This document shows, piece after piece, positions 26,128 through 46,618 of a stretch of 46,618 nt of DNA. Position numbers and translations under genes: made by a program. Source of the stretch: Gaiellales bacterium (lineage in GTDB: Bacteria; Actinomycetota; Thermoleophilia; Gaiellales; JAICJC01); NCBI GenBank assembly GCA_036403155.1, contig DASWRM010000021.1, positions 1-46,618 on the forward strand, written 5' to 3'. A model generated the notes under the pieces. That model had not been told where the DNA came from, made no database searches, and saw only the letters and a program-made list of their open reading frames with translations. Positions within the stretch are counted from its first letter, which is position 1. Every line of letters begins with the position of its first letter.

Positions 26128-27060
26128 ATGGCGCGACCGATCATCCTGGGCGTCGTGGGGGACTCTGCAAGCGGCAAGACCACGCTGACGCGCGGCCTCG
26201 TCCGGCTGCTCGGCCAGGAGAAGGTCTCGCTGATGTGCCTGGACGACTACCACCGGTTCGACCGGTCGCAGCGCGCGGCGATGGCGATCACGCCGCTGCA
26301 TCCCGACTGCAACCACATGGACATCATGGCCCAGCACCTTGCGCTGCTCCGGCGCGGCGAACCGGTGCTGAAACCGGTCTACCGGCACGCCGATGGCAGC
26401 TTCGGGCCGCCGGTGCGGCTGGAGCCGGGCCGTTTCCTGATCGTCGAGGGCCTGCTCGGCTACCACACCGACGCGCTGCGCGACTGCTTCGACATCCGCG
26501 TCTTCCTCGACCCGCCCGAGAGCCAGCGGCGCCGGTGGAAGGTCGTGCGCGACTGCTCGCGCCGCGGATACACGACGACGCAGGTGCTGGAGGAGATCGA
26601 CCGCCGCGAGGCCGATTCGGAGCAGTTCATCCGGCCGCAGCGCCACCACGCGGACATGGTCGTCCGCTTCTCGCCGCCGCCCGGAGCGGACGAGGGCGAC
26701 GGCACCCACCTGGACGCCCACCTGCTGCTGCGGCCGGGGCTCCCGCATCCCGACCTCTCCGACGTGGTCGGCGACGATCCCGAGCAGCGGCTGTCACTGG
26801 TCGGCGCGGACGGTGACCAGGACCTGCGAGTGCCGGGGCGCCTCGACCCGTCCGTCGCCCTGGAGCTCGAGGAGCGGATCTGGGAGCACATGCACTTCGC
26901 CAACCACCTGCGGTCGGAACGGCTCGGCGAGTTCACCGTCGGAACCGACCTGCATCGCAGCGACTCGCTCGCGATATCGCAGCTGCTCGTGCTCTACCAC
27001 CTGGTCACAGCCCGGGCCAAGGTCGCCCTGGGCGGCGCTGACGCCGCTACCCGCTCCTGA
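26128..27060 (+). CDS. prk: Phosphoribulokinase
   Basis: A 310-aa P-loop kinase that phosphorylates ribulose-5-phosphate to ribulose-1,5-bisphosphate. Seen: Walker A GDSASGKTT (residues 11-19), the family's CLDDYHRFDR, TPLHPDCNHMDIMAQHL, KPVYRHADGSFG, IVEGLLGYHTDALRDCFDIRVFLDPPESQRRRWKVVRD and HHADMVVRF. The 'N(HMD)', Tyr and Arg positions are as in Class I bacterial PRKs, and the length is slightly longer than usual (~290). There is no RuBisCO or other Calvin-cycle gene in this window. The 3' end overlaps the convergent lyase-like gene by 14 bases. Confidence 0.9.
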   Translation: MARPIILGVVGDSASGKTTLTRGLVRLLGQEKVSLMCLDDYHRFDRSQRAAMAITPLHPDCNHMDIMAQHLALLRRGEPVLKPVYRHADGSFGPPVRLEPGRFLIVEGLLGYHTDALRDCFDIRVFLDPPESQRRRWKVVRDCSRRGYTTTQVLEEIDRREADSEQFIRPQRHHADMVVRFSPPPGADEGDGTHLDAHLLLRPGLPHPDLSDVVGDDPEQRLSLVGADGDQDLRVPGRLDPSVALELEERIWEHMHFANHLRSERLGEFTVGTDLHRSDSLAISQLLVLYHLVTARAKVALGGADAATRS

Positions 27061-28558
27061 TGCCGGTCTCCCAGGCCTCGCCTGCCATGGCCTCCTCGAG
27101 CGGGGCCAGGTCGGCGAGCGGGGGAGTGCCAAGGCGCCAGCGCGGAGCCCGTTCGCGAACCTGCTCGTACACGCGGCGCGTGCCCCGGCCGAGCTCGGCC
27201 GACCGGTCGCGCAGGTCGACCGCCTGAGCCGCCAGGTACAGCTCCACGGCGGCGACGTACCGGGCCAGGCGCGCCATGTCGGCGAGGCGGCGCGCGGAGA
27301 TGGTGGTCGGGATGACGCGATCCTCGATGCCCTCGGCGACGCTGCTGGTCGGCAGCTCGAGGGTCGCCGGCTGCGCCAGCAGCCGCACCTCCGCGGCCGC
27401 CGCCGTGGCGCCGTAGACGACGATACCCAGCCCGTCCTCGCTCGAGCCGTCATCGTCCCGCAGGCCGGTCGGCAGGCCGCTGAACGCCGGGTGCGCAAGC
27501 TTGTTCGACCGCTCGCACGACGCCGTGACGACGTGCGCCAGTGCCAGCCGCAGATAGTCGATCGTCACGCCGTAGGGCACCGAGTCGAAGTTGCCGTTCG
27601 AGAGCGCGCGGCCGTCCGGGCTGATCGACGGGTTGTCGTGCGAGGCAACGAGCTCGGCCTCGACGATCGACCGCGCGTGGGCGAGCGCCACTCGCGCCGC
27701 CGAATGCGTCTGCGGAACCACCCGCATGGTGAGCGGGTCCTGGAGGTGGCGGTGCATCCCGCCGTCGATCAGCCGGCCGCCGGCGAGCAGGGCGCGCATC
27801 CGCTCGACGGCCTCAGCGATGCCGGGCACCGGCCGGGCGTCCGCGACCGCCGGGTCGAGCGCCTCGACGTTGCCCAGCATGCCCTCGAACGTCAGTGCGG
27901 CCGCCTCGTCGAAGTTGTCGAGCAGCCGCTGCACGTCGCTCATCGCGAGCGCCGTCCACCCGAGCGTGAAGGCGTTCGAGTTGACGAAGGCGAGGGCCTC
28001 CTTGTCCGTCGGCTGCCACGGCTCGAGGTCGAGGCGCGCGAGTTCCGCCGCCCAGTCGCCGTCCCCGGCCAGCGCCGAGCCGAGCTCCGCCAGCGGGCCG
28101 AGGTCCGACTGGCCGAGCGATCCGGTCGTTCGCATGCGCGGCGTGAACCCGGCATTCAGCGCGTCGACCAGCAGCTCCACCAGCTCCACCCGAACGCCGG
28201 CGCGCCCCTTCGCGAACCCGGCCGCCTGGGCGAGCATCGCGGCGCGAACCACCGCCTGCTCCACCGCGGGGCCGGTGCCCGTGCGATGCGACAGGACGAG
28301 CAGGCGGTTGAACTGGGCCTGCTCCTGCGTGCCGACCGCGACGCGCTTCAGGGCGCCCACACCGGTGGTCAGCCCGTAGACGCGCGTTCCCTCGCGCAGC
28401 AGGGACTCGGTGACCTCGCGGCCCCGCCGGATCCGCGCCGCGGCGCCGTCCGACAGCGTGACGCGACGGCCGCGCGTGGCGACCGCGGCGACATCCGCGA
28501 TCGTCAGGTGGTCGTCGAGGAGCAGGTCGCCGGCCGGCATGGCGTGATCATCACCCAT
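27047..28558 (-). CDS. Aromatic amino acid lyase homologue lacking the MIO triad
   Basis: A 503-aa member of the HutH/PAL superfamily: RVYGLTTGVGALK (Tyr61 at the catalytic Tyr position), FNRLLVLSHRTGTG, MRTTGSLGQSDLGPLAELGSAL, QDPLTMRVVPQTHSA, SNGNFDSVPYGVTIDYL and EGIEDRVIPTTI. In active HAL/PAL the segment reads G-A-S-G-D-L-x-P-L and Ala-Ser-Gly cyclises to MIO. Here it is G149-Q150-S151-D152-L, so the Ala is Gln and the Gly is missing. Standard MIO chemistry is therefore not expected. MIO-less members that release trimethylamine from betaines (ergothionase) are known. The upstream gene ends five bases before the ATG at 28558; an ATG at 28540 is an equally plausible start. Plain histidine ammonia-lyase is unlikely. 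Confidence 0.85.
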   Translation of the reverse strand: MGDDHAMPAGDLLLDDHLTIADVAAVATRGRRVTLSDGAAARIRRGREVTESLLREGTRVYGLTTGVGALKRVAVGTQEQAQFNRLLVLSHRTGTGPAVEQAVVRAAMLAQAAGFAKGRAGVRVELVELLVDALNAGFTPRMRTTGSLGQSDLGPLAELGSALAGDGDWAAELARLDLEPWQPTDKEALAFVNSNAFTLGWTALAMSDVQRLLDNFDEAAALTFEGMLGNVEALDPAVADARPVPGIAEAVERMRALLAGGRLIDGGMHRHLQDPLTMRVVPQTHSAARVALAHARSIVEAELVASHDNPSISPDGRALSNGNFDSVPYGVTIDYLRLALAHVVTASCERSNKLAHPAFSGLPTGLRDDDGSSEDGLGIVVYGATAAAAEVRLLAQPATLELPTSSVAEGIEDRVIPTTISARRLADMARLARYVAAVELYLAAQAVDLRDRSAELGRGTRRVYEQVRERAPRWRLGTPPLADLAPLEEAMAGEAWETGIRSG

Positions 28559-28563
28559 CGCGC

Positions 28564-29667
28564 TCACGCCACGTCGACGAAGGGGTCGCCGAGCGCATCC
28601 TCGAGCACGGTCACGCCCAGGCCCGGGCCGTCCGGCGAGGCCAGCCGTCCGGCGCGGGGCGCAGGCATTCCGACGGCGTTGTCGGCCGTCACCCACGCGT
28701 TGAAGTCGACCGTTGCGCCCCTGACCTGCGCCGGCGTCGACAGCGACATGTGCACCATCGCGGCGGTGTCGATGGACGCGCCGCCCGTGTCCTCGACCGT
28801 CACCTCGAGGCCCTGTCCGGCGGCGACGTCGCGCAGCAGGGCGGCCGGCGTGATGCCTCCCACCCGCGAGAGCTTGACCGTGACCCCGTCGGCGATGCCC
28901 CCCGCACGCACCGCCAGCAGATCGTCGAGCGTGACGATCGACTCGTCGAGCAGCATCGGCACGCCGCAGCGGCGACGGACGGCTGCGCACTCGCCGATCG
29001 TCGCGCACGGCTGCTCGAGCGCGTAGTCCAGCGTCCCGGCCAGGGCCGCGAACCGGATCGCGGAGGCGGACGTCCAGCCGCCGTTTGCGTCGGCGACCAG
29101 GCGGATCTCCGGTCCCGCCGCGTCACGAACCGCGAGCAGGCGCTCGACGTCCAGGGCCGGATCACCGCCCACCTTCACCTGCAGCCGGCGGTACCCGGCT
29201 GCCACCAGCCCGCCCGCCATGGCGGCCGCCTCCTCGGGAGAGTGCGGGGGGATCGAGCGGTAGAGCTCCACCGCGTCGCCGAACCGCCCGCCCAGCGCCT
29301 CGCACAGCGGCCGGCCGCGCTCGCGCGCCGCGGCGTCCCAGCAGGCCATGTCGATGGCCGAGCGCACGTACGGGTGTCCGCGCAGGAGCGCCCCCATGCG
29401 GGCGGCAAGCGCCCGCGGCTGGCCGGCGTCGAGCCCGAGCAGCTGCGGAGCCAGCTCCGCGACCCCGGCTCGTGCGCCTGCGGCGAACGCGTCGGAGTAG
29501 AACGAGCCGAGCGGCGCCATCTCGCCCCAGCCCGTCACCCCGGCCGCCGTCTCGACGGCGACGACCACGGAGTCGAACCCGTCGGCCGTACCGCCCGACG
29601 TGCCATACGTCCCCTCGGCGAACGGCTGCCACTGCCGGTACGCGCGGATGGCGGCGATCGCGCTCAA
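28564..29667 (-). CDS. Enolase-superfamily enzyme, muconate-lactonizing/dipeptide-epimerase-like subgroup
   Basis: About 367 aa. Capping domain first, then a TIM barrel: LQVKVGG (Lys165, with Gln163 where a first Lys is usual), metal ligands Asp193 (VADANGGW), Glu218 (YALEQP) and Asp241 (LLDES), and the opposite-face acid/base Lys265 (VTVKLSR). The two-Lys arrangement marks the MLE subgroup, which holds cycloisomerases, dipeptide epimerases and the betaine epimerase HpbD. No ATG fits; the TTG at 29665-29667 overlaps the upstream stop (TTGA) and is the likely start. Lying between an MttB-like and a lyase-like gene, it probably epimerises or dehydrates the same substrate. The reaction is unknown. 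Confidence 0.82.
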   Translation of the reverse strand: MSAIAAIRAYRQWQPFAEGTYGTSGGTADGFDSVVVAVETAAGVTGWGEMAPLGSFYSDAFAAGARAGVAELAPQLLGLDAGQPRALAARMGALLRGHPYVRSAIDMACWDAAARERGRPLCEALGGRFGDAVELYRSIPPHSPEEAAAMAGGLVAAGYRRLQVKVGGDPALDVERLLAVRDAAGPEIRLVADANGGWTSASAIRFAALAGTLDYALEQPCATIGECAAVRRRCGVPMLLDESIVTLDDLLAVRAGGIADGVTVKLSRVGGITPAALLRDVAAGQGLEVTVEDTGGASIDTAAMVHMSLSTPAQVRGATVDFNAWVTADNAVGMPAPRAGRLASPDGPGLGVTVLEDALGDPFVDVA

Positions 29668-31106
29668 TCGCCCAGCTCGGCCCGGCGGCGCACCACATAG
29701 GCGTCGAGCTGCTCGCGCAGGGCCGGATCCAGCGGCGGCTGCTCGTACCGGTCGAGCGCCTCGCGCCACAGCCTCGCCGCCCGCTCCGCCGCATCCTGTC
29801 CGCCCCGGGTCTGCCAGCGCTCGAAGTTCTCGGTGGACGACAACAGCGGCCGGTAGAAGCAGTCGCGGAACCGCTCGAGCGTGTGTGCAGCGCCGAAGAA
29901 GTGCCCGCCGTACCCGACCTCCCGGTGCGCGTCGAAGGCCAGGCTGGCCTCGTCGATCTCCATCGGCCGGAACTCCTCCTTGAGCACGCGCAGCATCTCG
30001 ATGTCGACGATGAACTTCTCGAAGCTCGCAACCAGCCCCGACTCCAGCCAGCCGGCCGCGTGCTCGACGTAGTGCGCCCCGGCCAGGAAGGCGGGGAGCA
30101 TGGTGTTGAGCCCCTCGTATGCGGCCTGGGCGTCCGGTGTCTGGCTCGAGGTCAGGAACCCGCCGCCCGCTCGCCACGGCACGCCGAACCGCCGCGCGAT
30201 CTGGCCCGAGGCGAGCAGGCCCAGCGCGGACTCCGGGCCGCCGAAGCCCGGCGAGCCGGACTGCATGTCGGTGTGCGAGAGGAACGAGCCCAGGATCACC
30301 GGGGCGCCGGGGCGCACGAGCTGTGTGAGGCAGAGGCCGGCCAGCGCCTCGGTCGTCTGCTGCACCAGTGCGGCCGGCGTCGAGACGGGCGCCATCGCGC
30401 CCATCAGCAGGAACGGGGTGATCACGTTCACCTGCCCGGCCTCCGCGTAGACCAGCATCGCCTCGAGCATGCGCGTGTCGAAGCGCAGCGGCGAGTTCGC
30501 GTTGACCACCGCGAAGACGCGGGCCTCGGGCCGTTCGGGGTCGTTGGCGCCGTGCAGGATGTCCGTCATCGCGATCGAGTCGCGGGCCGCCTCACCGGTG
30601 ATGACGGCCCCGAGATATGGCTTGTCGGTGAGCGTCTGAACGGCGAGCAGCATGTCCAGGTGGCGCGAGTCGAGCGGCCGGTCGTTCGGCTCGCAGCAGA
30701 GACCGCCCGGCGTGTCCAGCTCGTCGAACACCTGGCTGAGCTGCGCGAGCTGCTCGAAGTCGGCCATCGTCGCCTCGCGCCGCTCGTCGCCCATCCGGAC
30801 GAACGGCGGCCCCTGCGTGGGGGCGAAGAACATGTGGCGTCCGCCGACGTGGATGGTGCGCTCGGGATTCCGCGCCGCCAGATCGAACTCGGACGGCGCC
30901 TTCGCCACCTGCTCGAGCACGAACTCCGGGTCGAACCTCACGACGTTCCCGTCGACCGCCTGGCCGGCCCGGCGGAACCGGTCGACGGCCTCGTCGTGCA
31001 GGAACTCGACGCCCATCTCCGAGATCAGGCGGCGCCAGCCCCGCTCGAGAACGGCCATCGCCTCCTCGGAGAGCACCTCATAGCGGGGCATCAGGTTCTC
31101 GAACAC
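29664..31106 (-). CDS. MttB-superfamily (trimethylamine/glycine-betaine-type) corrinoid methyltransferase, non-pyrrolysine
   Basis: About 480 aa, homologous to the MttB superfamily: MPRYEVLSEEAMAVLERGWRRLI, GVEFLHDEAVDRFRRAG, HMFFAPTQGPPFVRMGDERREATMADF, NANSPLRFDTRMLEAMLVYAEAGQ, TPFLLMGAMAPVS and AGAHYVEHAAGWLESGLVASFEKF. The frame runs the full family length with no internal TAG, so it lacks the pyrrolysine of true TMA methyltransferase. Non-Pyl members demethylate quaternary amines (glycine betaine, proline betaine, carnitine), passing CH3 to a corrinoid protein. No corrinoid protein is nearby. I take the GTG at 31104-31106; ATG at 31091 is the alternative. First gene of the operon with the enolase-type and lyase-type genes. 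Confidence 0.88.
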   Translation of the reverse strand: MFENLMPRYEVLSEEAMAVLERGWRRLISEMGVEFLHDEAVDRFRRAGQAVDGNVVRFDPEFVLEQVAKAPSEFDLAARNPERTIHVGGRHMFFAPTQGPPFVRMGDERREATMADFEQLAQLSQVFDELDTPGGLCCEPNDRPLDSRHLDMLLAVQTLTDKPYLGAVITGEAARDSIAMTDILHGANDPERPEARVFAVVNANSPLRFDTRMLEAMLVYAEAGQVNVITPFLLMGAMAPVSTPAALVQQTTEALAGLCLTQLVRPGAPVILGSFLSHTDMQSGSPGFGGPESALGLLASGQIARRFGVPWRAGGGFLTSSQTPDAQAAYEGLNTMLPAFLAGAHYVEHAAGWLESGLVASFEKFIVDIEMLRVLKEEFRPMEIDEASLAFDAHREVGYGGHFFGAAHTLERFRDCFYRPLLSSTENFERWQTRGGQDAAERAARLWREALDRYEQPPLDPALREQLDAYVVRRRAELGD

Positions 31107-31194
31107 GACGCCGGAGGCTAACGGAGTCGGCCGTCCGCTGCCTGTGGGTGGGCCTGGCCGCCGGTTCCCGGGCTGGCGATATGATCGCCCGCCT

Positions 31195-32070
31195 ATGCGC
31201 GTTGCGGTCGTGGGACTGGGGACGATGGGTGCGCCGATGGCCCGGCATCTGCTCGAGGCGGGCCACGACGTGACCGTCCACAACCGCACGCGGGAGCGCG
31301 AGCAGCCGCTGGCGGAGCTGGGAGCCGCGCGGGCGGCGACGCCGTCGCAGGCCGCCTCCGGTGCGGACGCCGTGCTCACATGCGTCTCGGACACGCCCGA
31401 CCTGGAGCAGGTCGTCTTCGGCGCGGACGGCGTGGCGGAGGGCCTCGGGCAGGGCGGCATCGTCGTCGACTGCTCGACCGTCTCGCCTTCGGCGACCGCG
31501 GACATGGCGGCCCGGCTCGAGCAGCGGGGGCTCGGCCTCGTCGACGCGCCGGTGTCGGGCGGCTCGGAGGGGGCGGAGAAGGGCACCCTGACGATCTTCG
31601 TCGGCGGCCGGCCCGAGCACGTCGCCACGGCCCGCCCGGTGCTCGAGGCATTCGGCGCCCGGATCACGCATCTCGGGCCGAGCGGCTCGGGGCAGATGGC
31701 CAAGGCCGTGAACCAGGTGATGATCGCCGGCACGTACGCGACGGTGGGGGAGGGGATCGCGCTCGCGCAGGCCGCCGGTCTTCCGCTTCCCGAGCTGCTG
31801 GAGGCGCTGTCGGCGGGGGCGGCGGGGTCCTGGGTGCTCGCGAACCGGGCGGGGAACATGGTGGACGACCGCTATCCGCTCGGCTTCAAGGTGTCGCTCC
31901 ACCGCAAGGACGTGGCCATTGCTCTGGACGAGGCCCGGCGGCTGGGCGTCGGCACGGCCGTCTCCGACCTCGTCCTCTCCGAGGAGGACGAGCTGATCCG
32001 CGAGGGGTTCGGCGACGAGGACGTGAGCGCGCTGGCGCGGATCGCCAAGCGCCCGCGGGGCGGGTCGTGA
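31195..32070 (+). CDS. NAD(P)-dependent beta-hydroxyacid dehydrogenase (HIBADH/tartronate semialdehyde reductase family)
   Basis: A 291-aa oxidoreductase: Rossmann GLGTMGAPMA (7-), substrate loop DAPVSGGSEGAEKGTL (Ser121-Gly-Gly), catalytic Lys170 in GQMAKAVNQ with Asn173, then the all-helical C-terminal domain. It interconverts a 3-hydroxyacid and a semialdehyde (3-hydroxyisobutyrate, tartronate semialdehyde or similar). It is divergent from the MttB-like gene and its stop overlaps the acetyltransferase start (GTGA). Confidence 0.92.
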   Translation: MRVAVVGLGTMGAPMARHLLEAGHDVTVHNRTREREQPLAELGAARAATPSQAASGADAVLTCVSDTPDLEQVVFGADGVAEGLGQGGIVVDCSTVSPSATADMAARLEQRGLGLVDAPVSGGSEGAEKGTLTIFVGGRPEHVATARPVLEAFGARITHLGPSGSGQMAKAVNQVMIAGTYATVGEGIALAQAAGLPLPELLEALSAGAAGSWVLANRAGNMVDDRYPLGFKVSLHRKDVAIALDEARRLGVGTAVSDLVLSEEDELIREGFGDEDVSALARIAKRPRGGS

Positions 32071-33279: not shown

Positions 33280-33807
33280 ATGCAGCGTGTCAACATCCAC
33301 ACCGTCCCACTCGACCAGGCGCAGCAGCAGCGCGGCTACAGCTGGACAGCGGCGGCGCTGGGGCCGGCCATCGGCGCGGAGGCGATGGGTGCGACGCTGT
33401 ACGAGCTGCCGCCCGGCGAGGCGAGCTTCCCGTACCACTACGAGTACGGCTGCGAGGAGTGGCTGCTGGTCGTCACCGGAACTCCCACGCTGCGTGATCC
33501 CGACGGCACCCACACGCTCGACGCGGGGGACCTCGTCTGCTTCCGCGAGGGCCCGGCCGGCGCGCATCGGCTCGTCAACGAGGGGGACGAGCCCAGCCGG
33601 GTGATCCTCTTCTCGACCAAGGGACGGCCCGCGGTCGTGGTCTTCCCGGACAGCGCGAAGCTGCTGGCGTTCACCGGGGACGAGCGCGACGACGTCATCG
33701 TCCGGCGTGCGGACGCGGTCGACTACTGGGACGGCGAGGTCGACCGGAGCAGCGGGACGGGAAGCGGCGCCAATTCGAAGGGCAGCAGCTCGACCGCCCG
33801 CTCGTAG
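33280..33807 (+). CDS. Cupin-domain protein
   Basis: A 175-aa single-cupin protein: PPGEASFPYHYEYGCEEWLLVVTGTPTLRDPDG (metal-site motif 1 with His53-x-... Glu) and GDLVCFREGPAGAHRLVNEGDEPSRVILFS (motif 2, His). It resembles the YhhW/ChrR-like small cupins of unknown substrate. GAGAGG precedes the ATG. Its last 85 bases overlap the convergent ATP-grasp gene; the tail after DYWDGEVDRSSG is low-complexity and may be poorly conserved. Confidence 0.82.
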   Translation: MQRVNIHTVPLDQAQQQRGYSWTAAALGPAIGAEAMGATLYELPPGEASFPYHYEYGCEEWLLVVTGTPTLRDPDGTHTLDAGDLVCFREGPAGAHRLVNEGDEPSRVILFSTKGRPAVVVFPDSAKLLAFTGDERDDVIVRRADAVDYWDGEVDRSSGTGSGANSKGSSSTARS

Positions 33808-34856
33808 CGCTCGACCAGCGTCCGGCGATCGGGCCCGGAGAGCGCGATCACGGCGAGGCGGTGCGAGAGTACGTCGTCGTCGTTCTCGCTCAGCCGCTGG
33901 CCCTCGCGCACGAGGATCTCGACGCGTGCGCCCGGCAGCGCGTCGGTCACGATCGCCGGGTCGGGCACGCTGCGAACGATGGCGTCGCTGTAGGCGCGCA
34001 GCAGGAAGCTGGCGGCGACGACGTCCGTGCGCGCCGGCGGCAGCACCGGCGAGCCGCCCGCCGCGAGCTCCAGCTGCAGCTCGTAGGTCGACACGCCGTG
34101 CACCGCTCTCACCAGTGGGGCGAACTGCGAGGCCATCCGGCCGTTCACCTCCACGATCCAGACGCGGCCGTCCCCGGCCACGAAGAACTCGATGTTGAAG
34201 AGCGACTGGTCGAACCCGAGGGCGGGCATCAGCGTCTCGGCGACCTCGGCCATCCGCTCGTGCGCGGCCTCCGGCACGGTGCTCGGGTACTCGAAGCGCA
34301 GGAAGCTGATGCCGTTGGGGTGCAGCACCGCATCGGTCACGCCGATCGGCGTCATCCGGCCGCGATGCATGAACCCTTCGAAGGTGACCAGGCGGCCGGA
34401 CAGCAGCTGCTCGGCGATCAGGTGGCGGAAGCTCGCGCGCCGGGCGCTCGCGAGCACCTCGGCGAGCCGCTCGTCGGAGTCGACGCGGTAGGCGTGCTGC
34501 GACAGGTGGCCCAGCACCGGCTTGAGGAAGAACGGATAGGGGAGGGGCGGGCGGTCCGGCGGTCGCAGGGCGTCGAGCGGCGCGAATGCGGGGGTGGCCT
34601 CCGGAACCGTCGCGGCCTGGATGCGGCGGCACGCGAGCTTGTCGTGGCAGCGCATGAACGCCTCGTATCCCGGCCCGGGGAGCCCGAGCCGGTCCGCGAC
34701 CACGACTGCAAGCGCCGCAGTGGAGTCGCTCGAGCCGAACACGCCGTCGACGCCGGGCCCCTCGTCGAACGTCAGGTCGTACCGCGCGAGCAGCCTGCCG
34801 TCGGCGAGATTCAGGAGGTCTCGCCTGGTGGGCGCAACCACCAGCAGCCGCTTCAT
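33723..34856 (-). CDS. ATP-grasp family ligase
   Basis: A 377-aa ATP-grasp protein: YPFFLKPVLGHLSQHAYRV (ATP-binding Lys), LIAEQLLSGRLVTFEGF and IEFFVAGDGRVWIVEVNGRMASQF (Glu and Asn Mg ligands) are the carbamoyl-phosphate-synthase-like core. The N-terminal FDEGPGVDGVFGSSDSTAALAVVVADRLGLPG and CHDKLACR is the usual pre-domain. It probably makes an amide or peptide bond between a carboxylate and an amine; the substrate is not evident. GGAGGG lies about 10 bases before the ATG. It is downstream of the MetE-like gene, 89 bases away. Confidence 0.85.
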   Translation of the reverse strand: MKRLLVVAPTRRDLLNLADGRLLARYDLTFDEGPGVDGVFGSSDSTAALAVVVADRLGLPGPGYEAFMRCHDKLACRRIQAATVPEATPAFAPLDALRPPDRPPLPYPFFLKPVLGHLSQHAYRVDSDERLAEVLASARRASFRHLIAEQLLSGRLVTFEGFMHRGRMTPIGVTDAVLHPNGISFLRFEYPSTVPEAAHERMAEVAETLMPALGFDQSLFNIEFFVAGDGRVWIVEVNGRMASQFAPLVRAVHGVSTYELQLELAAGGSPVLPPARTDVVAASFLLRAYSDAIVRSVPDPAIVTDALPGARVEILVREGQRLSENDDDVLSHRLAVIALSGPDRRTLVERYERAVELLPFELAPLPVPLLRSTSPSQ

Positions 34857-34945
34857 GCTCGTCGATCCCTCCAGTGCGCGAGCGTTTCGCCCGCCGCCGC
34901 GGCGGCGGTTGGCAGATGGTAGCGACCGATCGCGTCCCGCGCGAC

Positions 34946-36055
34946 TCAGCCCCAGAGGCGGGCGGCGGCCTCCGCGATCGTGCGCAGCTTGGCGCGCTCG
35001 TCGTCCACGGTGACGGCGTTGCCGATCACGGACGTCGCGAACCCGCACTGCGGCGAGATCGCGAGCCGCTCGAGGTCGATGTGCGCGGCGGCCTCGCGCG
35101 TGCGCCGCTGGAGTTCGTCGGCGGTCTCCCGGCGTCCGGACTTCGTCGTGACCAGCCCGAGCACCACCATACGGTCGTCGGGCACCTCGCGCAGCGGCTC
35201 GAACCCGCCGGACCGCTCGTCGTCGTACTCGAGCAGCAGCCGCTGCGCCCGGACGCCGCGGAACACGCGTGGCGCGATCGGGTCGTAGCCGCCGGACACG
35301 AGCCAGCGGCTGCCCTGGTTGCCGCGGCAGAGGTGGAAGCCGAACGTGACCCCCGGCGCCGCGTCGATCACCGCGTTGTCGAGCTCGATGCCGCGGTCGA
35401 GCCATCGCTCCAGCGTCCAGCCCTGCGATTCGTAGAACGCCCGCGTGGCGGGATCGATCAGCAGCGGGTAGTGGGGCGCGTCGAGCTGGAGGTAGACGGC
35501 GCCCAGCCGGGCCAGCTCCCGCACCTCGTCGCACATGATGGCCACGACGTCCTCGAGGAACGCGTCCAGGGTCGGATAGGCGTCGCGCGACACGTCCGGC
35601 GACCAGAGGTTCGCGTATAGGCTGGGGCTTGTCAGCGTCACCTTCGGGATCCGCGTGGTGCGGCCGCGCAGGTACGTGAGCTCCTCGGCCGCGATGTGCC
35701 GGCGCCTCGCGAGCGGCTGTTTCACGCCGAGCCGGGGCGGCCGGTCGGTGGCCTTGTCGCCGACGTCCTGGCCGCCGTGCCACTCGCCCCAGAGGTAGGC
35801 ATCGAGCGGAACCTCGCCGAAGCCGTCGACCGCGTCCGGCAGGCCGCTCTGGAAGGACAGGCGGCGCATCTCGCCGTCGGTCACGACGTCGATGCCGGCC
35901 TGCTCCTGGAGGCGCACGGCGGCGTCGACGGCCTCGTCCTCGATGCGCTTGAACTCCGGCGGGGCAAGGTCACCGCGCTCGAAGCGCTCACGGGCGGCGA
36001 GCAGCTCAGGCGGGCGCAGCAGGCTGCCGACGACGTCAGTATGGGCGCGCACCAT
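34946..36055 (-). CDS. MetE C-terminal-domain-like zinc methyltransferase (core-MetE type)
   Basis: A 369-aa TIM-barrel protein equal in size to the catalytic domain of cobalamin-independent methionine synthase. It keeps the zinc ligands: His241-x-Cys243 in FGFHLCRGN, Glu276 in LLLEYDDE and Cys337 in ISPQCGFAT; VGSLLRPPEL and DVVTDGEMRR mark the barrel start. Core-MetE proteins without the N-terminal half transfer methyl groups to homocysteine from donors other than polyglutamyl folate, or serve other thiols. The ATG at 36053-36055 begins the conserved part. Near an MttB-like demethylase this may form part of methyl-group handling, which is inference. Confidence 0.82.
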   Translation of the reverse strand: MVRAHTDVVGSLLRPPELLAARERFERGDLAPPEFKRIEDEAVDAAVRLQEQAGIDVVTDGEMRRLSFQSGLPDAVDGFGEVPLDAYLWGEWHGGQDVGDKATDRPPRLGVKQPLARRRHIAAEELTYLRGRTTRIPKVTLTSPSLYANLWSPDVSRDAYPTLDAFLEDVVAIMCDEVRELARLGAVYLQLDAPHYPLLIDPATRAFYESQGWTLERWLDRGIELDNAVIDAAPGVTFGFHLCRGNQGSRWLVSGGYDPIAPRVFRGVRAQRLLLEYDDERSGGFEPLREVPDDRMVVLGLVTTKSGRRETADELQRRTREAAAHIDLERLAISPQCGFATSVIGNAVTVDDERAKLRTIAEAAARLWG

Positions 36056-39236: not shown

Positions 39237-39650
39237 TTACCCCTGCCGCCCGGCAGGCGACGGGATGCCGGCCAGGCGCCTGACGACGTCGAGGCCCTCC
39301 GGGGTGCCCGGCCAGTTCCGCGACAGCGTCTCGCTGCCGGTGCGGCGCACGACCGCGCGCACGACCCAGATCACGAGGATCGCATCGTCCGCCCAGCCAA
39401 CGACGGGGATCACGTCTGGGACGAGGTCGATCGGCACGGCCAGGTAGAAGAGCAGCAGCCACAGCCGCAGCCGCACCGCCCACGGGAGCGAGCGGTCCTG
39501 CGCGATGCCGCCGAGCAGCAGCAGCAGGTCGGGCAACACGCGCGCCGCCTCGCGCAGATCCGTCCGCGGACGGAAGATCATCAGCCCGCCGACGAACGCG
39601 ACCCAGACGATCACGAGGCTGGCCAGGACGGCGATGACGAGCGTCAGCAT
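39237..39650 (-). CDS. DUF1232 (YkvA-like) membrane protein
   Basis: A 137-aa protein with an N-terminal membrane helix (LTLVIAVLASLVIVWVAFVGGL) and the DUF1232 core LFYLAVPIDLVPDVIPVVGWADDAILVIWVVRAV. Function unknown. Its ATG overlaps the stop of the enolase-type gene by one base (TGATG), making it the last gene of the transporter-Fae operon. Confidence 0.88.
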   Translation of the reverse strand: MLTLVIAVLASLVIVWVAFVGGLMIFRPRTDLREAARVLPDLLLLLGGIAQDRSLPWAVRLRLWLLLFYLAVPIDLVPDVIPVVGWADDAILVIWVVRAVVRRTGSETLSRNWPGTPEGLDVVRRLAGIPSPAGRQG

Positions 39651-40762
39651 CAGGCGACTCGCCAGCGCTCGAGCGCATCGAGGTCAGGGTCCATCCCGAG
39701 CCCGGGCCCGGGCGGCGGGGCGATGCTGCCGTCGTCCCCGATGTCGACCACCGACGGGAGCATCCAGTCGCGGCGCTCGGCCGACCACGCGGGCGGGTCG
39801 TAGGGCACCTCGACGAAGGGGTGCGTCGAGAAGCCGCAGGCCGCATGCAGGTTCGCGACCAGCCCATAGCCGTTCGACCAGGTGTGCGGCGACCAGACGC
39901 GGCCGAGCTGCTCGGCCCGCCGCGCGATCCGCCGGCACCCTTCGATGCCGCCGCAGAACAGGACGTCGCATTGGATCACCGCAATGCCCCCGCGCTCGAG
40001 CAGGTCGAGCGCCTCGTGCTCCTGGCGCACCATCTCGCCGGCGCCGATGCGGATCGGCGTGCCGGCCGTCAGCGCGGCGTAGCCCTCGATGTCCGCCGTG
40101 TCGAGCGGCTCCTCCAGCCAGTGGACGCGCAGCGGCTCGAGCGCCTCGGCGCAGCGGCGCGCCGTGTCGAGCTCCCACCGCGGGGAGATGTCCCCCGGCA
40201 TGCGCCATCCCTGGTTGGCGTCCACCATGATCTCCATCTCGTCCCCGACTGCTGCCCTGACCGCCTCGACGACCCGCACGTCGTCGCGCCAGTCGGCATG
40301 GTGGAACCGGATCTTGAGAGCTCCCAGCCCTGCGTCCCGCAGCTCCACCGCGCGGCGCGCTCGCTCGCCGGGCTCGGCCAGCTCGCCCGTCGACGCGTAC
40401 GCCCGCAGGCTCGGCTGGCGCCCACCGAGCAGCTCCCACAGCGGCCGCCCCGCGGCGCGCCCGGCGAGATCCCAGCAGGCCACCTCGACCGCCCACGGCC
40501 GCCCTCCGTGGAAGTCGACGGTCGCGCACACCCGTTGCACCGTCCCGGCGTCGCGTGGGTCGATGTCGGCGAGCAGGCGCTCGAGCAGCGCGCGGTCCGG
40601 CAGGCCGTCGCCACCGCTGGCAAAGCCGCGGCTGCCGTCGTCCGCCGTGACAATGACGAGCGTCGCATCCTGCGAGGTCCGCGGGACGGGGTCCCATGCC
40701 GCGCGGAAGGGCGGGTCGAACGGATGCCGGTAGGTTCGGGTCTCGATCGAGACGATGCGCAT
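39650..40762 (-). CDS. Enolase-superfamily enzyme of mandelate-racemase type
   Basis: A 370-aa enzyme: LGALKIRFH (Lys150-Ile-Arg152 at the KxK position), metal ligands Asp181 (MVDANQGW), Glu217 (WLEEPLD) and Glu243 (IGAGEM), and the His-Asp dyad Asp266/His293 (VIQCD, SPHTWSNGYG). The His293 base marks the MR subgroup, whose members racemise alpha-hydroxyacids or dehydrate sugar acids. The first catalytic Lys pair being Lys-x-Arg suggests a dehydratase-like, His-based reaction. Its start overlaps the Fae stop by one base (TGATG). With the importer and dehydrogenase it likely acts on an imported acid or derivative. Confidence 0.87.
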   Translation of the reverse strand: MRIVSIETRTYRHPFDPPFRAAWDPVPRTSQDATLVIVTADDGSRGFASGGDGLPDRALLERLLADIDPRDAGTVQRVCATVDFHGGRPWAVEVACWDLAGRAAGRPLWELLGGRQPSLRAYASTGELAEPGERARRAVELRDAGLGALKIRFHHADWRDDVRVVEAVRAAVGDEMEIMVDANQGWRMPGDISPRWELDTARRCAEALEPLRVHWLEEPLDTADIEGYAALTAGTPIRIGAGEMVRQEHEALDLLERGGIAVIQCDVLFCGGIEGCRRIARRAEQLGRVWSPHTWSNGYGLVANLHAACGFSTHPFVEVPYDPPAWSAERRDWMLPSVVDIGDDGSIAPPPGPGLGMDPDLDALERWRVA

Positions 40763-41286
40763 CAGGATCCGCCGTAGAAGGCGTTCCGCGCCGTCTCCCG
40801 CCCTTCGGCGATCGCCCGGACGGACGCCTCTGGAGCGCCCGACAGCGCGTCGTCGATCGCCTCCCTGGTGGCGACCCGCGCCGCGATCCGGCTCGCGGTC
40901 TCGTCGTTTGCCTCGGGGTCCACCCAGACCGCGACCAGCAGCACCAGCTCGCCCGCGATCTCGGCGGGCAGCCTGCCGTCGGCAACCGCGTCCATCACCC
41001 CCTGGCCGATGCCCAGCTGCGCCGCGCCCCACGTGATGCGCTGGTGGAGGTCCTCGATCGCCGGGGCCTTGTTCGTCATGATCGTGACCGGGCGCACCGC
41101 GTTACCGGCGCCCAGGCACACGACCACCGGGGCGTGCCCCGGCCGCGGGTTCGCGAGCGCTGACACGGCCGCGGCCGCGGTTGCCGACCCGCGGCGGCCG
41201 ATCGCCAGATTGATGTGGCTGCCGTTCGGCACGTCGCCGGCCCAGGCCTCGCCGATCCGCCCGTCGTACTCGTCCAGGTCAGTCAT
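40762..41286 (-). CDS. fae: Formaldehyde-activating enzyme (Fae) homologue
   Basis: A 174-aa protein matching the Fae family along its length: IGEAWAGDVPNGSHINLAIG with His24 at the catalytic His position, AVSALANPRPGHAPVVVCLG, AVRPVTIMTNKAPAI, WGAAQLGIGQGVMDAVADG, LVLLVAVWVDPEANDE and a C-terminal helix of ATREAIDDAL type. Classical Fae condenses formaldehyde with tetrahydromethanopterin. Actinobacteria generally lack that cofactor, and orphan Fae paralogues of unknown role are known. It overlaps the dehydrogenase stop (ATGA) and the enolase-type start, so it is tightly built into a catabolic operon. A formaldehyde or other aldehyde by-product is a plausible substrate. Confidence 0.85.
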   Translation of the reverse strand: MTDLDEYDGRIGEAWAGDVPNGSHINLAIGRRGSATAAAAVSALANPRPGHAPVVVCLGAGNAVRPVTIMTNKAPAIEDLHQRITWGAAQLGIGQGVMDAVADGRLPAEIAGELVLLVAVWVDPEANDETASRIAARVATREAIDDALSGAPEASVRAIAEGRETARNAFYGGS

Positions 41287-42404
41287 GCCGCTGCTCCCGT
41301 CATGTCGAGCACCGCCCGAAGCGCCGACCCGGACTGGAGGAGGGCGAACGCCTCGTCGATGCGGTCGAGCGGCAACCTATGCGAGATCAGCCGGTCGAGC
41401 GGCAGGCGGCCGCGGCGGTAGGCGTCGAGGATGACCAGGAAGTCACGCTCCGGGCGCGCCGATCCGTACAGCGCGCCGATCACCCGGCGCTCCATGCGCG
41501 GGATGCTGAGCGCGGGCAGCGGCACGACGGCGTCCTCTCGCGGAATGCCGATGCAGACGGCGGCACCGCGGCGGCGGGTGCTGAGGAACGCCGCGAGCAT
41601 CGCTTCCGGGCGTCCCGTCGCCTCGAACGCGAAGTCGACGCCGCCCCCGCTCACCGCCGCGACGGCCTCGGCGGTCGCCTCGGGCGAGCCCGCCCACTCG
41701 ACCGCGTCCGTCGCGCCCAGCTCCAGGGCCGCCTCCAGCTTGGCGCCGTCCACGTCGACCGCGACGATCGGAGACGCGGACACGGCGGCGAGCCCGATCA
41801 CGGCCGACAGGCCGACGCCCCCGCAGCCGACCACGGCCGCTCGCTGGCCCGGGCGCACGTTCGCCGACCGCCAGACCGCGCAGATGCCGGTGGTAACCGC
41901 GCACCCGACCAGCCCTGCGATCTCGAGCGGCACGTCCGCCGGGATAGCGACGCACGAGCGCTCCGGCACGACGGCGTGCTCGGCGAACGACGACAGGAAC
42001 GAGTAGTGGTGGACGGGCTCGCCACCGCGGGACAGGCGGGTCGTCCCGTCCAGGAGGGTGCCCCGCGCCATCATCGGCCACGCCGTCCCGCAGAGGTGGG
42101 GCAGGTCGTCCAGGCACTCGGCGCACCGGCCGCACGACGGTGCCCACGACAGCGCGACGTGGTCGCCCGGCGCCACCCGCGTCACGCCGGGCCCGACCTG
42201 CTCCACGACGCCGCCGCCCTCGTGGCCGAGCACCGCCGGGCACGGCGTCTCGGCCGTGCCGTCGATCGCGTTCATGTCCGAGTGGCAGACGCCGCTCGCG
42301 TGGATGCGTACGAGCACCTCGCCGGCACCGGGCGGCGCCAGCTCGAGCTCCGTGACGACGAGCGGGTCGCCGACCCGCTCGAGCACCGCGGCCCGGGTGA
42401 TCAC
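41283..42404 (-). CDS. Zinc-dependent medium-chain alcohol dehydrogenase
   Basis: A 373-aa MDR: catalytic zinc motif GVCHSDMNAIDG and GHEGGGVVEQVG, the structural zinc Cys set CGRCAECLDDLPHLC, catalytic Cys in GLVGCAVTTG, and NAD-binding AVVGCGGVGLS. It is closest in outline to class III/NDMA-type dehydrogenases that act on alcohols or thiol-formaldehyde adducts. A GTG start overlaps the ABC ATPase stop (GTGA) and its own stop overlaps the fae start, so it may make or remove the aldehyde that Fae handles. Confidence 0.9.
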   Translation of the reverse strand: MITRAAVLERVGDPLVVTELELAPPGAGEVLVRIHASGVCHSDMNAIDGTAETPCPAVLGHEGGGVVEQVGPGVTRVAPGDHVALSWAPSCGRCAECLDDLPHLCGTAWPMMARGTLLDGTTRLSRGGEPVHHYSFLSSFAEHAVVPERSCVAIPADVPLEIAGLVGCAVTTGICAVWRSANVRPGQRAAVVGCGGVGLSAVIGLAAVSASPIVAVDVDGAKLEAALELGATDAVEWAGSPEATAEAVAAVSGGGVDFAFEATGRPEAMLAAFLSTRRRGAAVCIGIPREDAVVPLPALSIPRMERRVIGALYGSARPERDFLVILDAYRRGRLPLDRLISHRLPLDRIDEAFALLQSGSALRAVLDMTGAAA

Positions 42405-44488
42405 CCGGCGGCCGGGGCCGGGTCGCCGTCCACGGCGCCGACCGGCTCCGCCGGCTCGTTCTGCAGGCGCCGCAGCTCGTCGATCGGGATGTGACAGCGG
42501 ATGTGGTGCCCCGGCTCGACCTCCGCCAGCGGCGGCTCGCTGTTCACGCAGACGTCGCCCAGGAACCGCGGGCAGCGGGTGTGGAAGACGCAGCCGGTGG
42601 GCGGATCGGCCACGCTCGGCACCTCGCCGGACAGCCGGATCCGTTCGCGCTCGCCGCCCAGCGTCGGCACGGCGGAGAGCAGCGCCTCCGTGTAGGGGTG
42701 GTGCGGGCCGTCGAACACGACCTCGGCGGGGCCCAGCTCCATCAGCCGGCCGAGGTAGAGCACCGCGATCCGGTCCGACAGGTACCGGACGACGCCGAGG
42801 TCGTGGGAGATGAAGAGGTACGAGACGTGACGGTCCCGCTGCAGGTCGACGAGCAGGTTGAGGATCGCCGCCTGGACAGAGACGTCGAGCGCGCTGGTCG
42901 GCTCGTCGCAGACCACCACCTTCGGATCGCCGGCGAAAGCGCGGGCGATCGCGACCCGCTGCTTCAGCCCGCCGGACAGCGCGGTCGGGCGGACGGAGAG
43001 GTGGCGCTCCCGGAGCCGGACGCTGTCGGCCAGCGCCCGCAGCCGCTCCTCGCGCGCCTTGCCACGGAGGCCGGCGAGCTGCGAGAGCGCGCGGCCGATC
43101 AGCCGTCGCACCGTGTGGCTGCGGTTGAGCGCGCTGTCGGGGTTCTGGAACACGATCTGCAGCGCCGCCTGCTCCTCCTCGCCGCGCTTACCGACGCGGG
43201 AGGCGAGCGAGCGCCCGTCCATCTCGATGCTGCCGCCCTCATCCGGCTCGATGATGCCGAGGATGCTCTTCGCCAGAGTGGTCTTGCCGCTGCCGGATTC
43301 GCCCACGAGCCCGAGCGTCTCGCCCGGCCAGATCTCGACGGTGACGCCGTCCAGCACGTGCACCGCCGCTCCCGCCTGCCGGAACGTCTTGCCGACGTCG
43401 TTCGCCTTCAGCAGCGGCACGTCCCCGCGGGGGGCGGGGGCGCCGGCCGCGATGTCGGCGGGCGTGGTTCGCGGCATCGCGGGCGCCTGCTGCCAGTGGT
43501 AGCAGCGGCTGATGTGGCCGGGAGCGGTCTCGACGGGGGGTGGAGGGCTGGCGTGGCACTCGTCGGTCGCGAGCGGGCAGCGGTCCGAGAACACGCAGCC
43601 CTGGAGGAACGCCCCGGGGAGCGGGAGGAACCCGGGGATGGTGTCGAGCCGGCCATGATCCTTGCGGTGGCCGCGCGCCGAGATGCAGCGCAGCAGGCCG
43701 ACGGTGTAGGGGTGCCGCGGATTCGCCAGCACCTCGGCGGACAGGCCCTCCTCGACCAGCTCGCCCGCGTAGAGCACGCCGATGCGGTCGCACATCTTCG
43801 AGATCACGCCGAGGTCGTGCGAGATGAACAGCACGGCGGTGTTGAACTCGGCCCGCAGGTGTGAGACCAGGTCGAGCACCTCGGCCTCGACCGTTGCATC
43901 GAGCGCGGTCGTCGGCTCGTCGAGGATCAGCAGCGTCGGGTCGGACGCGAGCGCCATCGCGATCACCACGCGCTGCTGCATGCCGCCGGAGAGCTGGTGG
44001 GGATAGCGCTGCGCCACCGAGTCGACGTCGGCGATCTGCACCTTGCGCAGCATGCCGGTCGCGAGGTCGCGTGCTTCCTTGCCGCGCTTCCCGGCCACCT
44101 CGAACGCCTCGGCCACCTGCCGGCCGATGCGGATGGACGGGTTGAGCGCGCGGCTCGGATCCTGGTAGACCATCGAGACGGGGCCTGCCCGGAGCCGACG
44201 CAGATCCGGGGCCGACATCGCCGTCAGGTCGCGGCCGTCGATGCGGATCGACCCGCTGCGGATACGGCCGTTGCCCGGCAGGTAGCGGACAGCCGCCTGG
44301 GCGACCGTCGATTTCCCGCATCCCGACTCGCCGACGAGCCCGTAGCTCTCGCCCTGGCCGATCGTGAACGAGATGCCGCGGAGCACCTGCCGGTCGATCC
44401 CGCGCACCCGGTACGCCACATCGAGGTCGAGCACCTCGAGCGCGGGCGCGGTGGCGACGGGCGTCTCGACGACGAGGTCCGCGCTCAT
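42401..44488 (-). CDS. Oligopeptide-type ABC importer, two ATPase domains fused (DppD-DppF)
   Basis: A 695-aa protein holding both nucleotide-binding domains. NBD1: GESGCGKST (53-61), [34 protein letters not shown], then the oligopeptide-type C-terminal Cys cluster ([15 protein letters not shown]). NBD2: GESGSGKTT (about 400), [35 protein letters not shown] and a second [10 protein letters not shown] Cys tail. The two Cys tails are typical of DppD and DppF, which are separate genes in most bacteria. It energises import with the two permeases upstream, into which its ATG start overlaps by four bases. Confidence 0.93.
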
Positions 44489-45378
44489 TCCGTCACCGCC
44501 CGCTGCAGGCCGTCAGCGATCAGATTCACGGCCACGACGAGCGACGCGATCGCCATGGCCGGGCCCAGCGACTCCCACCAGAAGCCGGCCGAGATCAGCG
44601 CGTAGGCGTCGTTGATCTGGGCGCCCCAGTCGGGCGACGGCGGCTGCGGCCCGAAGCCCAGGAACGAGAGCGTGGCGACCGCGAAGATGGCATAGCCGAC
44701 GCGCACGGTGAACTCGACGAGGACCGGCGGCAGCACATTCGGCAGCACCTCGGCGAAGAGGATGTAGGGCGCCTTCTCGCCGCGCAGCTCCGCCGCGGTG
44801 ACGTACTCCTGCTCGCGCTCCGAGAGCACGGCTGCGCGCACTGTGCGTGCGATGATCGGGGCGAACACCAGCCCGATCACGAGCACCAGCGTGAGGTTGG
44901 AGGTGCCCGTGGCGGCCAGCACGGTGAGCGCGACGATTACCAGGGGCAGCGCCAGCACCGCCTCCACCATGCGGCTGAGAATGTCGTCCGTGAGCCCGCG
45001 GAAGTAGCCCATCGTGAGCCCCAGCGCCGTGCCCAGGATCGTGCCGAGCAGCGTCGCCAGCGGAGCCACCAGCAGGATGTTGCGCGATCCCACGATCACA
45101 CGAGAGAAGACGTCGCGGCCGAGCGCGTCGGTGCCGGCCCAGTGCGCCGACGACGGGCGCGCGTTGTGGTCGAGCAGGTTCTGCTGGTAGGCGTCGTGCG
45201 GTGCGATGTGGCTGCCGAACAGCGCGCAGAGCACCCAGAACGCCAGGATCAGGCCACCCACCCACACGGTCTTCGAGCGGAGGATCAGGCGCAGCGTCTC
45301 GCGACGCGCCTGGGCGGCGGTCTCGGTCGCGGGCTGGAGGACGGCCGGGTTGTTGCCCTCGGCGGTCGTCGCGCTCAC
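44485..45378 (-). CDS. ABC permease, DppC/OppC type
   Basis: A 297-aa permease: cytoplasmic N-terminus ARRETLRLILRSKTVWVGGLILAFW, the DppC signature HWAGTDALGRDVFSRVIVGSRNILLVA, and the EAA loop EYVTAAELRGEKAPYILFAEVLPNVLPP, with about six membrane helices. GTG start at 45376-45378 overlaps the upstream permease stop (GTGA). It forms the channel with the DppB-type partner. Confidence 0.92.
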   Translation of the reverse strand: MSATTAEGNNPAVLQPATETAAQARRETLRLILRSKTVWVGGLILAFWVLCALFGSHIAPHDAYQQNLLDHNARPSSAHWAGTDALGRDVFSRVIVGSRNILLVAPLATLLGTILGTALGLTMGYFRGLTDDILSRMVEAVLALPLVIVALTVLAATGTSNLTLVLVIGLVFAPIIARTVRAAVLSEREQEYVTAAELRGEKAPYILFAEVLPNVLPPVLVEFTVRVGYAIFAVATLSFLGFGPQPPSPDWGAQINDAYALISAGFWWESLGPAMAIASLVVAVNLIADGLQRAVTE

Positions 45379-46331
45379 GATGCGTCGCCCCCCACCCGGA
45401 TCCGCGGGTTCAGCGCGGCCGACAGGATGTCGGCCGTGAGGGTGGCCAGGAGGTAGACCACGCCGACCAGCAGCACCGCCGACTCGAGCACGGGGTAGTC
45501 CTTCTGGTGGGCGGCGTTGAAGAGCAGCTGGCCGACGCCGTTGTAGTTGAACAGCCGCTCGACCACCACCAGGCCGCCGATCAGATATCCCGTCTGCGTG
45601 GCGACGACGGCGATCGTCGGCAGGAGCGAGTTGCGCAGGACGTGCCGGAAGATTACCGTGCGGCGGGACAGGCCCTTCAGGTATGCCGTGCGGGTGTAGT
45701 CGGAGTGCAGTGCGTCGATCGTGCCCGCGCGGGAGATGCGGGCGATGTAGCCGAACAGGACGAGGGTCAGTGCGAGCGCGGGGAGGAGCAGGTACTTGAG
45801 CTGCTCGATCGGGCCGGTGCCCGGCGGCCAGGATGCGGACACGGGGAGCAGGTTCAGCCACAGCCCGAAGATCGACAGCAGCACGATGCCTCCGACGAAT
45901 TCCGGCATCACGGCGGCGGACAGGCCGCCGACGGAGATCACCCGGTCGACCCACCGCCCCTCGTTGAGCGCGGACACGACGCCGCCGAGGATTCCCAGAG
46001 GGACGACGAGCACGAACGCCAGGAGCGCCAGCTTCAGCGAGTTGTCGAGCGCCGACCTGAGCATGTCGGACACCGGCCGCTTCTGGGCGTAGGACGTGCC
46101 GAGGTCACCGCGCACCACGCCGCCGATCCAGTCGCCGTACTGGGTGATCAGCGGACGGTCGGTGCCGAGGTCGTGGTTGATCGCCTTCACCGTTGCCTCG
46201 CTGGCGAACGGACCGGCGAGCGCCCGGCCCGGGTTGCCTGGAAGCACCGTCGTGCCGAGGAAGATCAGCATGGACAGCAGCCACAGGGTGACCAGGCCGA
46301 GCGCAAACCGTTTTGCGAGAAAGCGGATCAT
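45375..46331 (-). CDS. ABC permease, DppB/OppB type
   Basis: A 318-aa permease: MIRFLAKRFALGLVTLWLLSMLIFLG, PGNPGRALAGPFAS, GDLGTSYAQKRPVSDML and the EAA loop DYTRTAYLKGLSRRTVIFRHVLRNSLLP, with about six membrane helices. It starts 40 bases after the solute-binding protein ends. The substrates of this class include di- and oligopeptides, opines, nickel and glutathione; none can be chosen from sequence. Confidence 0.92.
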   Translation of the reverse strand: MIRFLAKRFALGLVTLWLLSMLIFLGTTVLPGNPGRALAGPFASEATVKAINHDLGTDRPLITQYGDWIGGVVRGDLGTSYAQKRPVSDMLRSALDNSLKLALLAFVLVVPLGILGGVVSALNEGRWVDRVISVGGLSAAVMPEFVGGIVLLSIFGLWLNLLPVSASWPPGTGPIEQLKYLLLPALALTLVLFGYIARISRAGTIDALHSDYTRTAYLKGLSRRTVIFRHVLRNSLLPTIAVVATQTGYLIGGLVVVERLFNYNGVGQLLFNAAHQKDYPVLESAVLLVGVVYLLATLTADILSAALNPRIRVGGDAS

Positions 46332-46371
46332 CTGGTGACGCCCGGGATGACGGCTCCGCAGTGAGCCGTCG

Positions 46372-46618
46372 TCAGGCCACCGACACCTGGTCGGTCCACG
46401 TCTGCCCCATCGCCGACGCCCGAAGACCGGAGAGGCCGGCGCGCGTCGCCGAGAGGTAGTTGTAGAAGTAGGCGAAGATGATCGGCGTCTCGTCGAGCAG
46501 CAGCTCCTGGAGCTGCTTGGCGTAGCCGCGCTGGCTCTGCAGATCGACAGCGCCGATGTACTGGGCCACCAGCTTGTCGTACTGCGGGTTCTTGAAGTGG
46601 GCCGCGTTCCAGGTGCCG
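46372..46618 (-). CDS. C-terminal end of an SBP_bac_5 (DppA/OppA-type) solute-binding protein
   Basis: The last 82 codons of a gene running off the right edge: TWNAAHFKNPQYDKLVAQYI, QRGYAKQLQELLLDETPIIFAYFYNYLSATRAGLSGLRASAMG. The 'Q..L.....P.I..Y.......' pattern and final 'DQVSVA' fit the family's C-terminus. It is the presumed exported receptor for the importer encoded just downstream on the same strand. Confidence 0.85.
   Translation of the reverse strand, partial: GTWNAAHFKNPQYDKLVAQYIGAVDLQSQRGYAKQLQELLLDETPIIFAYFYNYLSATRAGLSGLRASAMGQTWTDQVSVA

Follow-up and report, generated by a model that had tools for sequence, protein, structure and literature searches.

The window, i.e., the whole stretch of 46,618 nucleotides analysed here (contig DASWRM010000021.1 of a Gaiellales bacterium), encodes a lyase of the HAL/PAL fold which lacks the MIO triad and which, judging from its sequence, probably eliminates trimethylamine from an amino-acid betaine without this cofactor. 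The betaine-lyase reading is well supported by inference, and the substrate is most likely an imidazole betaine, probably hercynine or a relative. In the literature searched, a MIO-free lyase on this fold is already known from ergothionase alone, which works without MIO and frees trimethylamine from ergothioneine (PMC13405746, 2026). The trait now extends to no fewer than 80 additional loci in Actinomycetota, Chloroflexota, Methylomirabilota and Pseudomonadota, and many of these loci have neighbourhoods of the betaine type. A literature search for a hercynine lyase or betaine lyase returned nothing, with the structure paper on ergothionase and two papers on ergothioneine catabolism outside its range; as far as searched, neither the MIO-less clade nor its distribution and gene context have been described, and part of this may be contained in those papers.

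If the proposed reaction is correct, environmental bacteria would own a general route from amino-acid betaines to trimethylamine and acrylates, and the question of how a lyase loses its cofactor once and then diversifies would be opened. Annotations of histidine catabolism would also be corrected, many “HutH” labels being wrong, and, were hercynine the substrate, its breakdown would gain its first assigned enzyme.

The lyase gene and its shortened loop

The lyase open reading frame runs on the minus strand from an ATG at 28558 to a stop at 27047 (Table 1), and PF00221 (aromatic amino acid lyase domain) spans the product end to end with 401 bits. HutH is the usual label of genes of this type, but the window lyase scores 325.5 bits against the hutH equivalog TIGR01225, under the cut-off of 539. 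The earlier note on this DNA had pointed to a G-Q-S-D replacement of the MIO triad at 28096-28125; the replacement is real, and falls within TTGSLGQSDLGPL (28129-28091, minus strand). Alignment against the HAL counterpart, GSVGASGDLAPL, bears out the description of this loop as one residue shorter and devoid of Ala and Gly: the window lyase reads GSLG-QS-DLGPL where MIO enzymes have GSxG-ASG-DLAPL, and Ala-Ser-Gly is gone.

Table 1. Features of the window discussed in the text (positions on the window; strand in parentheses).
Feature	Position	Strand	Evidence
MIO-less PAL-fold lyase, 503 aa (predicted betaine/trimethylamine lyase)	27047..28558	(-)	PF00221, MIO-less clade, Foldseek
TTGSLGQSDLGPL, MIO-loop remnant one residue shorter than GSxGASGDLAPL	28091..28129	(-)	ORF translation, alignment
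Enolase-superfamily enzyme (MLE type)	28564..29667	(-)	PF13378 + PF02746
MttB-superfamily methyltransferase	29664..31109 (end approximate)	(-)	PF06253 597 bits, whole length
3-hydroxyisobutyrate-type dehydrogenase	31195..32070	(+)	PF03446/PF14833; near 7 MIO-less loci
ATP-grasp enzyme	33723..34856	(-)	PF13535
MetE-like (Meth_synt_2) methyltransferase	34946..36055	(-)	PF01717
Second enolase-superfamily enzyme	39650..40762	(-)	PF13378 184 bits
Formaldehyde-activating enzyme (Fae) homologue	40762..41286	(-)	PF08714 120 bits; under TIGR03126 cut-off
Zinc alcohol/formaldehyde dehydrogenase-like protein	41283..42404	(-)	
Dpp/Opp-type ABC importer (ATPases, permeases, partial binding protein)	42401..46617	(-)	PF00005 x2 with oligo_HPY, PF00528/OppC_N

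A scan of GTDB species genomes with the family alignment recovered 243 relatives, and the short loop is found in the primary match of all of the best 80 among them. Actinobacterial carriers of MIO-less genes go by the names of Thermoleophilia, Acidimicrobiales, Streptosporangiaceae, Rubrobacter and Euzebyales, and further carriers are Chloroflexi, NC10, Bosea, Labrys, Paraburkholderia, Rhizobium, Advenella and Hydrogenophaga; the viral contigs searched for relatives of the window lyase yielded none. Across the family, the two residues ahead of the loop Asp vary (QS, QA, QG, ES, MG, AA, VS and others), with Ser, Ala or Gly at the Ser position. As this Ser, the would-be dehydroalanine, is not conserved, the family as a whole is incapable of forming MIO.

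Closer to the window, two genomes of its own family carry 73%-identical orthologues with the identical GQSD motif. The ratio of non-synonymous to synonymous changes (dN/dS) of the window lyase against these orthologues is 0.28 and 0.32 (0.09 between the two), i.e., the gene is under purifying selection. Since the same motif recurs in orthologues from independent genomes, it is not a sequencing error, the outcome which the earlier note had set against its own reading. There is thus next to no chance that the gene encodes an ordinary histidine ammonia-lyase whose motif was misread through a sequencing or assembly error: PF00221 does match over the full length, but the orthologues refute such an error, the score is far under the hutH cut-off, the Tyr280 position is changed too (see below), and a true HutH is encoded elsewhere in the same genome (670 bits, loop GSLGASGDLAPL), adjoining urocanase and imidazolonepropionase genes on another contig.

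Two side observations concern these relatives. The family of the window genome also contains MIO-less paralogues of another type, with GSIG-SG-D (L232 on G002:C93 and L233 on G003:C96), which group with L106 and L116. In addition, L111 (CAMDVX010000035.1), filed as a Bifidobacterium breve metagenome-assembled genome, matches a contig from the window's own order (L031/L144) with the same motif and positions, and is probably a mis-labelled bin.

Phylogeny, predicted structure and active-site residues

In a maximum-likelihood tree of 63 proteins, MIO-less (50) and MIO (13) sequences are split by one branch with a support of 100 (the trees are quick ones, with SH-aLRT support only), and this split persists when the alignment is stripped of the MIO loop, of the LQDPL segment and of the Lys353 region. 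The superfamily phylogeny proposed in the earlier note, with the Treponema ergothionase included, thus places the window lyase on the MIO-less side (support 100) and outside any MIO-type clade. T. denticola ergothionase (6s7j, represented in the trees by residues 7-472, the stretch from the phmmer alignment) is on the same side, in its own clade with L157-L160 (support 100), its clade mates being plasmid-borne proteins of Polaromonas, Sinorhizobium, Burkholderia and Paracoccus. The window lyase groups with L121 in a MIO-less clade separate from that of ergothionase (support 99). A 105-row tree agrees on the MIO-less grouping, with ergothionase flagged there as a long branch. One protein of the ergothionase clade, L158 from pSymA of Sinorhizobium meliloti, has a GQAD motif, is annotated as hutH, and has an ABC importer and a gene labelled dimethylsulfoniopropionate lyase in its vicinity.

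An AlphaFold2 model of the window lyase (58 sequences; mean pLDDT 93, pTM 0.93) has ergothionase 6s7j as its top Foldseek match (E 2e-32, TM 0.90), above HAL, TAL and aminomutase, and VIA-align gives a tie between ergothionase (Z 45.0) and tyrosine aminomutase (Z 45.2). Ergothionase (PDB 6s7j/6s7q) shares with the window lyase the HAL/PAL fold, a loop that is one residue short (SSIGEGD), the LQDPL[ST] segment (LQDPLSFR in ergothionase) with Leu for HAL Tyr280, and all of the Tyr, His, Gln, Arg, Phe and Glu equivalents, the imidazole-site His and Glu among them. This likeness, together with the cysteine-dioxygenase-like cupins encoded close to 18 MIO-less loci and potentially acting on a sulfur-bearing substrate, would suit an ergothionase converting ergothioneine into thiourocanate and trimethylamine. 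We nonetheless consider this identity unlikely for the window lyase: the two proteins belong to separate, fully supported clades, their identity is ~29%, and the window lyase has Tyr in place of the TIQK-segment Lys that 4/5 of the ergothionase group possess. Its gene context, made of betaine demethylases and C1 genes, is also unlike that of ergothionase. On these comparisons, the window lyase is not an ergothionase orthologue. HutH (P. putida 1b8f, T. acidophilum 7tqr) likewise shares the fold and most pocket residues, including the His83 and Glu414 equivalents, but the window lyase differs from it by the loss of Ala-Ser-Gly and of Tyr280, and by its position across the branch between MIO and MIO-less enzymes.

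Residues were compared between 50 MIO-less and 13 MIO sequences, with numbers following P. putida HAL in a mapping that we take from the alignment; the roles given below to residues of the window lyase pocket are predicted from this alignment. The Tyr280 position, which contacts MIO in HAL, is Tyr in 13/13 MIO sequences, and every tabulated MIO-less sequence has Leu or, in a few cases, Ile there (Leu276 in the window lyase); Asn195, invariant in MIO enzymes, is variable in MIO-less ones. No variation occurs in the comparison set at Tyr53 (window Tyr61) or Arg283 (Arg279), and the catalytic Tyr61, noted earlier as kept, does not vary in any aligned relative. Gln277 (Gln273), Phe329 (Phe324) and Glu414 (Glu412) are nearly invariant, with Glu414 replaced by Leu or Met in one proteobacterial branch only. 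His91 and Glu412 of the window lyase, counterparts of the HAL imidazole-site residues His83 and Glu414, are both kept; some members adjoining urocanase genes have Cys or Gln instead of His91, and the Glu414 position is Gln in PAL/aminomutase (TAM)-type sequences of the set. We also considered Lys353 as a signature in common with ergothionase and dropped it, as Lys or Arg occurs on both sides.

Overall, the residues touching MIO have been lost and those serving the carboxylate, the base and (mostly) the imidazole ring retained, which suggests a changed mechanism rather than decay. The view in the earlier note that this is not simple decay is upheld by the motif shared with the 73%-identical orthologues, the dN/dS of ~0.3 and the retained pocket. 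An inactive or regulatory HutH paralogue, in which catalysis was lost together with MIO, would be in line with the missing triad, but is very improbable given that the Tyr, Gln, Arg and Phe equivalents are (nearly) invariant in a large family covering several phyla, that selection is purifying (dN/dS 0.28-0.32), that the metabolic operons are conserved, and that ergothionase, a MIO-less relative, is active (PMC13405746).

The branch with Leu or Met for Glu414 (L087, L090, L091, L093, L113, L118 and kin, with GQSD or GESD motifs, from Bosea, Paraburkholderia, Rhizobium and Advenella) also has a different neighbourhood, with IclR and Ttt transporters, and probably acts on another betaine substrate.

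Gene neighbourhoods of MIO-less lyases

In the window, the lyase is the last gene of a minus-strand operon in which the genes for MttB, the enolase-superfamily enzyme and the lyase overlap or nearly abut. The MttB gene has no in-frame stop and is of the non-pyrrolysine type; its nearest solved relatives are 4yyc, 2qne and the glycine-betaine methyltransferase MtgB (9yce, 354 bits), far above the Pyl-type 7xcl (115 bits), which points to a demethylase of the quaternary-amine type. The earlier note had named such an MttB-type demethylase as the operon partner, and this part stands, refined to the non-Pyl quaternary-amine type by the nearest solved relatives; the enolase-superfamily gene in between had gone unmentioned. 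MtgB itself is a corrinoid-dependent demethylase rather than an eliminating enzyme, and no gene for a corrinoid protein was identified in the window. Elsewhere in the same genome (G000:C53:12820-15316), another MttB gene adjoins a corrinoid-binding (B12-binding_2) gene, which may supply the corrinoid partner of the window MttB.

The enolase-superfamily enzyme of the operon scores 343 bits against NF043002 (cut-off 500) and aligns end to end with the 4mgg/4h2h/4e8g group, its nearest solved relatives (292, 196 and 190 bits, respectively), although it remains under the NCBIfam cut-off. These groups include cis-3-hydroxy-L-proline dehydratase and hydroxyproline-betaine epimerases, and the window enzyme is possibly a betaine epimerase or dehydratase. 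The remaining genes (Table 1) turn up again near relatives, combined in different ways, suggesting that the 27-46.6 kb region is for the most part one metabolic island. The pair formed by the ATP-grasp and MetE-like genes (33723-36055), for example, is found again near the MIO-less lyases L049, L126 and L134.

We compared ~9 kb around ~100 MIO-less genes with 15 separate canonical MIO loci; the neighbourhood rows are related, such that counts are not phylogenetically independent, and the tally of 100 is approximate, as it includes L231 as well as the divergent PF00221 matches L235 and L236, which have no readable motif. Importers near MIO-less genes were Dpp-type (DppA 27) or of the quaternary-amine kind, with the components ProW (11) and OsmF (8), and the enzymes included the enolase family (17), MttB (11), Fae (10), MetE-like (10) and BHMT-like (7) proteins, with GcvT genes also among the neighbours. 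At the 15 canonical loci, hut genes were present and no Dpp, OsmF/ProW, MttB, enolase-family, cysteine-dioxygenase-like cupin, GcvT, MetE-like or Fae genes were detected, the one exception among the sought types being a BHMT-like gene. The neighbourhoods of MIO-less genes thus fit betaine catabolism. Urocanase genes were recorded near 14 MIO-less genes, one of these being the mis-tallied L231 (G030:C26:6004-7304), a canonical HutH split over two frames, through either an assembly error or a broken gene.

Cupins of the cysteine-dioxygenase-like type (PF05995), often with an amidohydrolase (PF04909), adjoin the MIO-less lyases L050, L064, L127, L131, L132, L141, L142 and others, and possibly provide a sulfur-removing step for thio-betaines.

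Candidate reaction and substrate

A trimethylammonium group leaves without activation by MIO, which a free amine requires. As the quaternary nitrogen is a good leaving group in itself, the electrophilic MIO would be unneeded in the elimination that we propose for the window lyase, namely a 1,2-elimination of trimethylamine from an alpha-trimethylammonio acid to yield a trans-acrylate. By analogy with their HAL equivalents, Tyr61 would serve as the base or acid at the beta-carbon side, with Arg279 holding the carboxylate, and an imidazole betaine (hercynine or a relative) would be converted into urocanate or a modified urocanate. The importer, the enolase-family enzyme, MttB and the C1 genes would serve the uptake and other processing of the betaine and its methyl groups, and our guess is that this betaine could also be demethylated by MttB or epimerised by the enolase-family enzyme.

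An imidazole betaine is favoured because His91 and Glu412 are kept and because hut-like clusters occur among relatives. In L136, from the window's genus, genes for HutF-like, HutU and HutI proteins are followed by a MIO-less lyase overlapping hutI by 4 bases, and then by a Dpp importer. Divergent extra urocanases also lie near MIO-less lyases in G524-G526, the only urocanase of G520 (Streptosporangiaceae, completeness not stated) adjoins a MIO-less lyase in a genome where no HutH of canonical score was found, and the ergothionase-like gene of Paracoccus adjoins a complete hut operon. Given these clusters, at least some family members could plausibly form an imidazole acrylate. The HutF-like label is given by position only, to members of the amidohydrolase cluster c11 that lie beside HutU and HutI; a uniform assignment of c11 to HutF was rejected, its representative L144_11 not being HutF-like above the cut-off.

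Counting against an imidazole substrate, hut-like genes are absent from the window island, the single urocanase of the genome sits outside it, and the case is carried over from relatives and two residues. The lack of hut genes in the island, the canonical hut locus already present in the genome and the proline-type betaine enzymes found in the group of the enolase neighbour would all be compatible with elimination of trimethylamine from a non-imidazole aromatic betaine (trimethyl-Phe, trimethyl-Tyr or hypaphorine) or another alpha-trimethylammonio acid. Against this rather unlikely substrate range stands the HAL-type Glu412, which is Gln in PAL/TAM-type sequences. MttB and importers of the Dpp rather than the Opu type leave room for other betaines. 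With an imidazole betaine still the preferred substrate of the window lyase, it is possible, and here put forward tentatively, that the widespread MIO-less clade degrades hercynine or ring-modified relatives to urocanate-type products and trimethylamine, several lineages having recruited their own divergent urocanase or hut-like pathway.

EgtD (PF10017) was not found in the window's own 98%-complete genome and is present in only 2/11 of its kin; the betaine would thus come from outside, and salvage or catabolism is a more probable role than turnover of the cell's own hercynine.

A second urocanase was detected in only 2/17 genomes, those of L136 (G004) and L140 (G020), with 227 and 245 bits for these copies vs. 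242-306 for first copies. Both loci (L136:4351-10195 on G004:C143 and L140:8446-16359 on G020:C14) combine divergent HutF-like, HutU and HutI genes with a MIO-less lyase, in genomes that possess a canonical HutH and urocanase as well, and their second urocanases may act on a modified urocanate.
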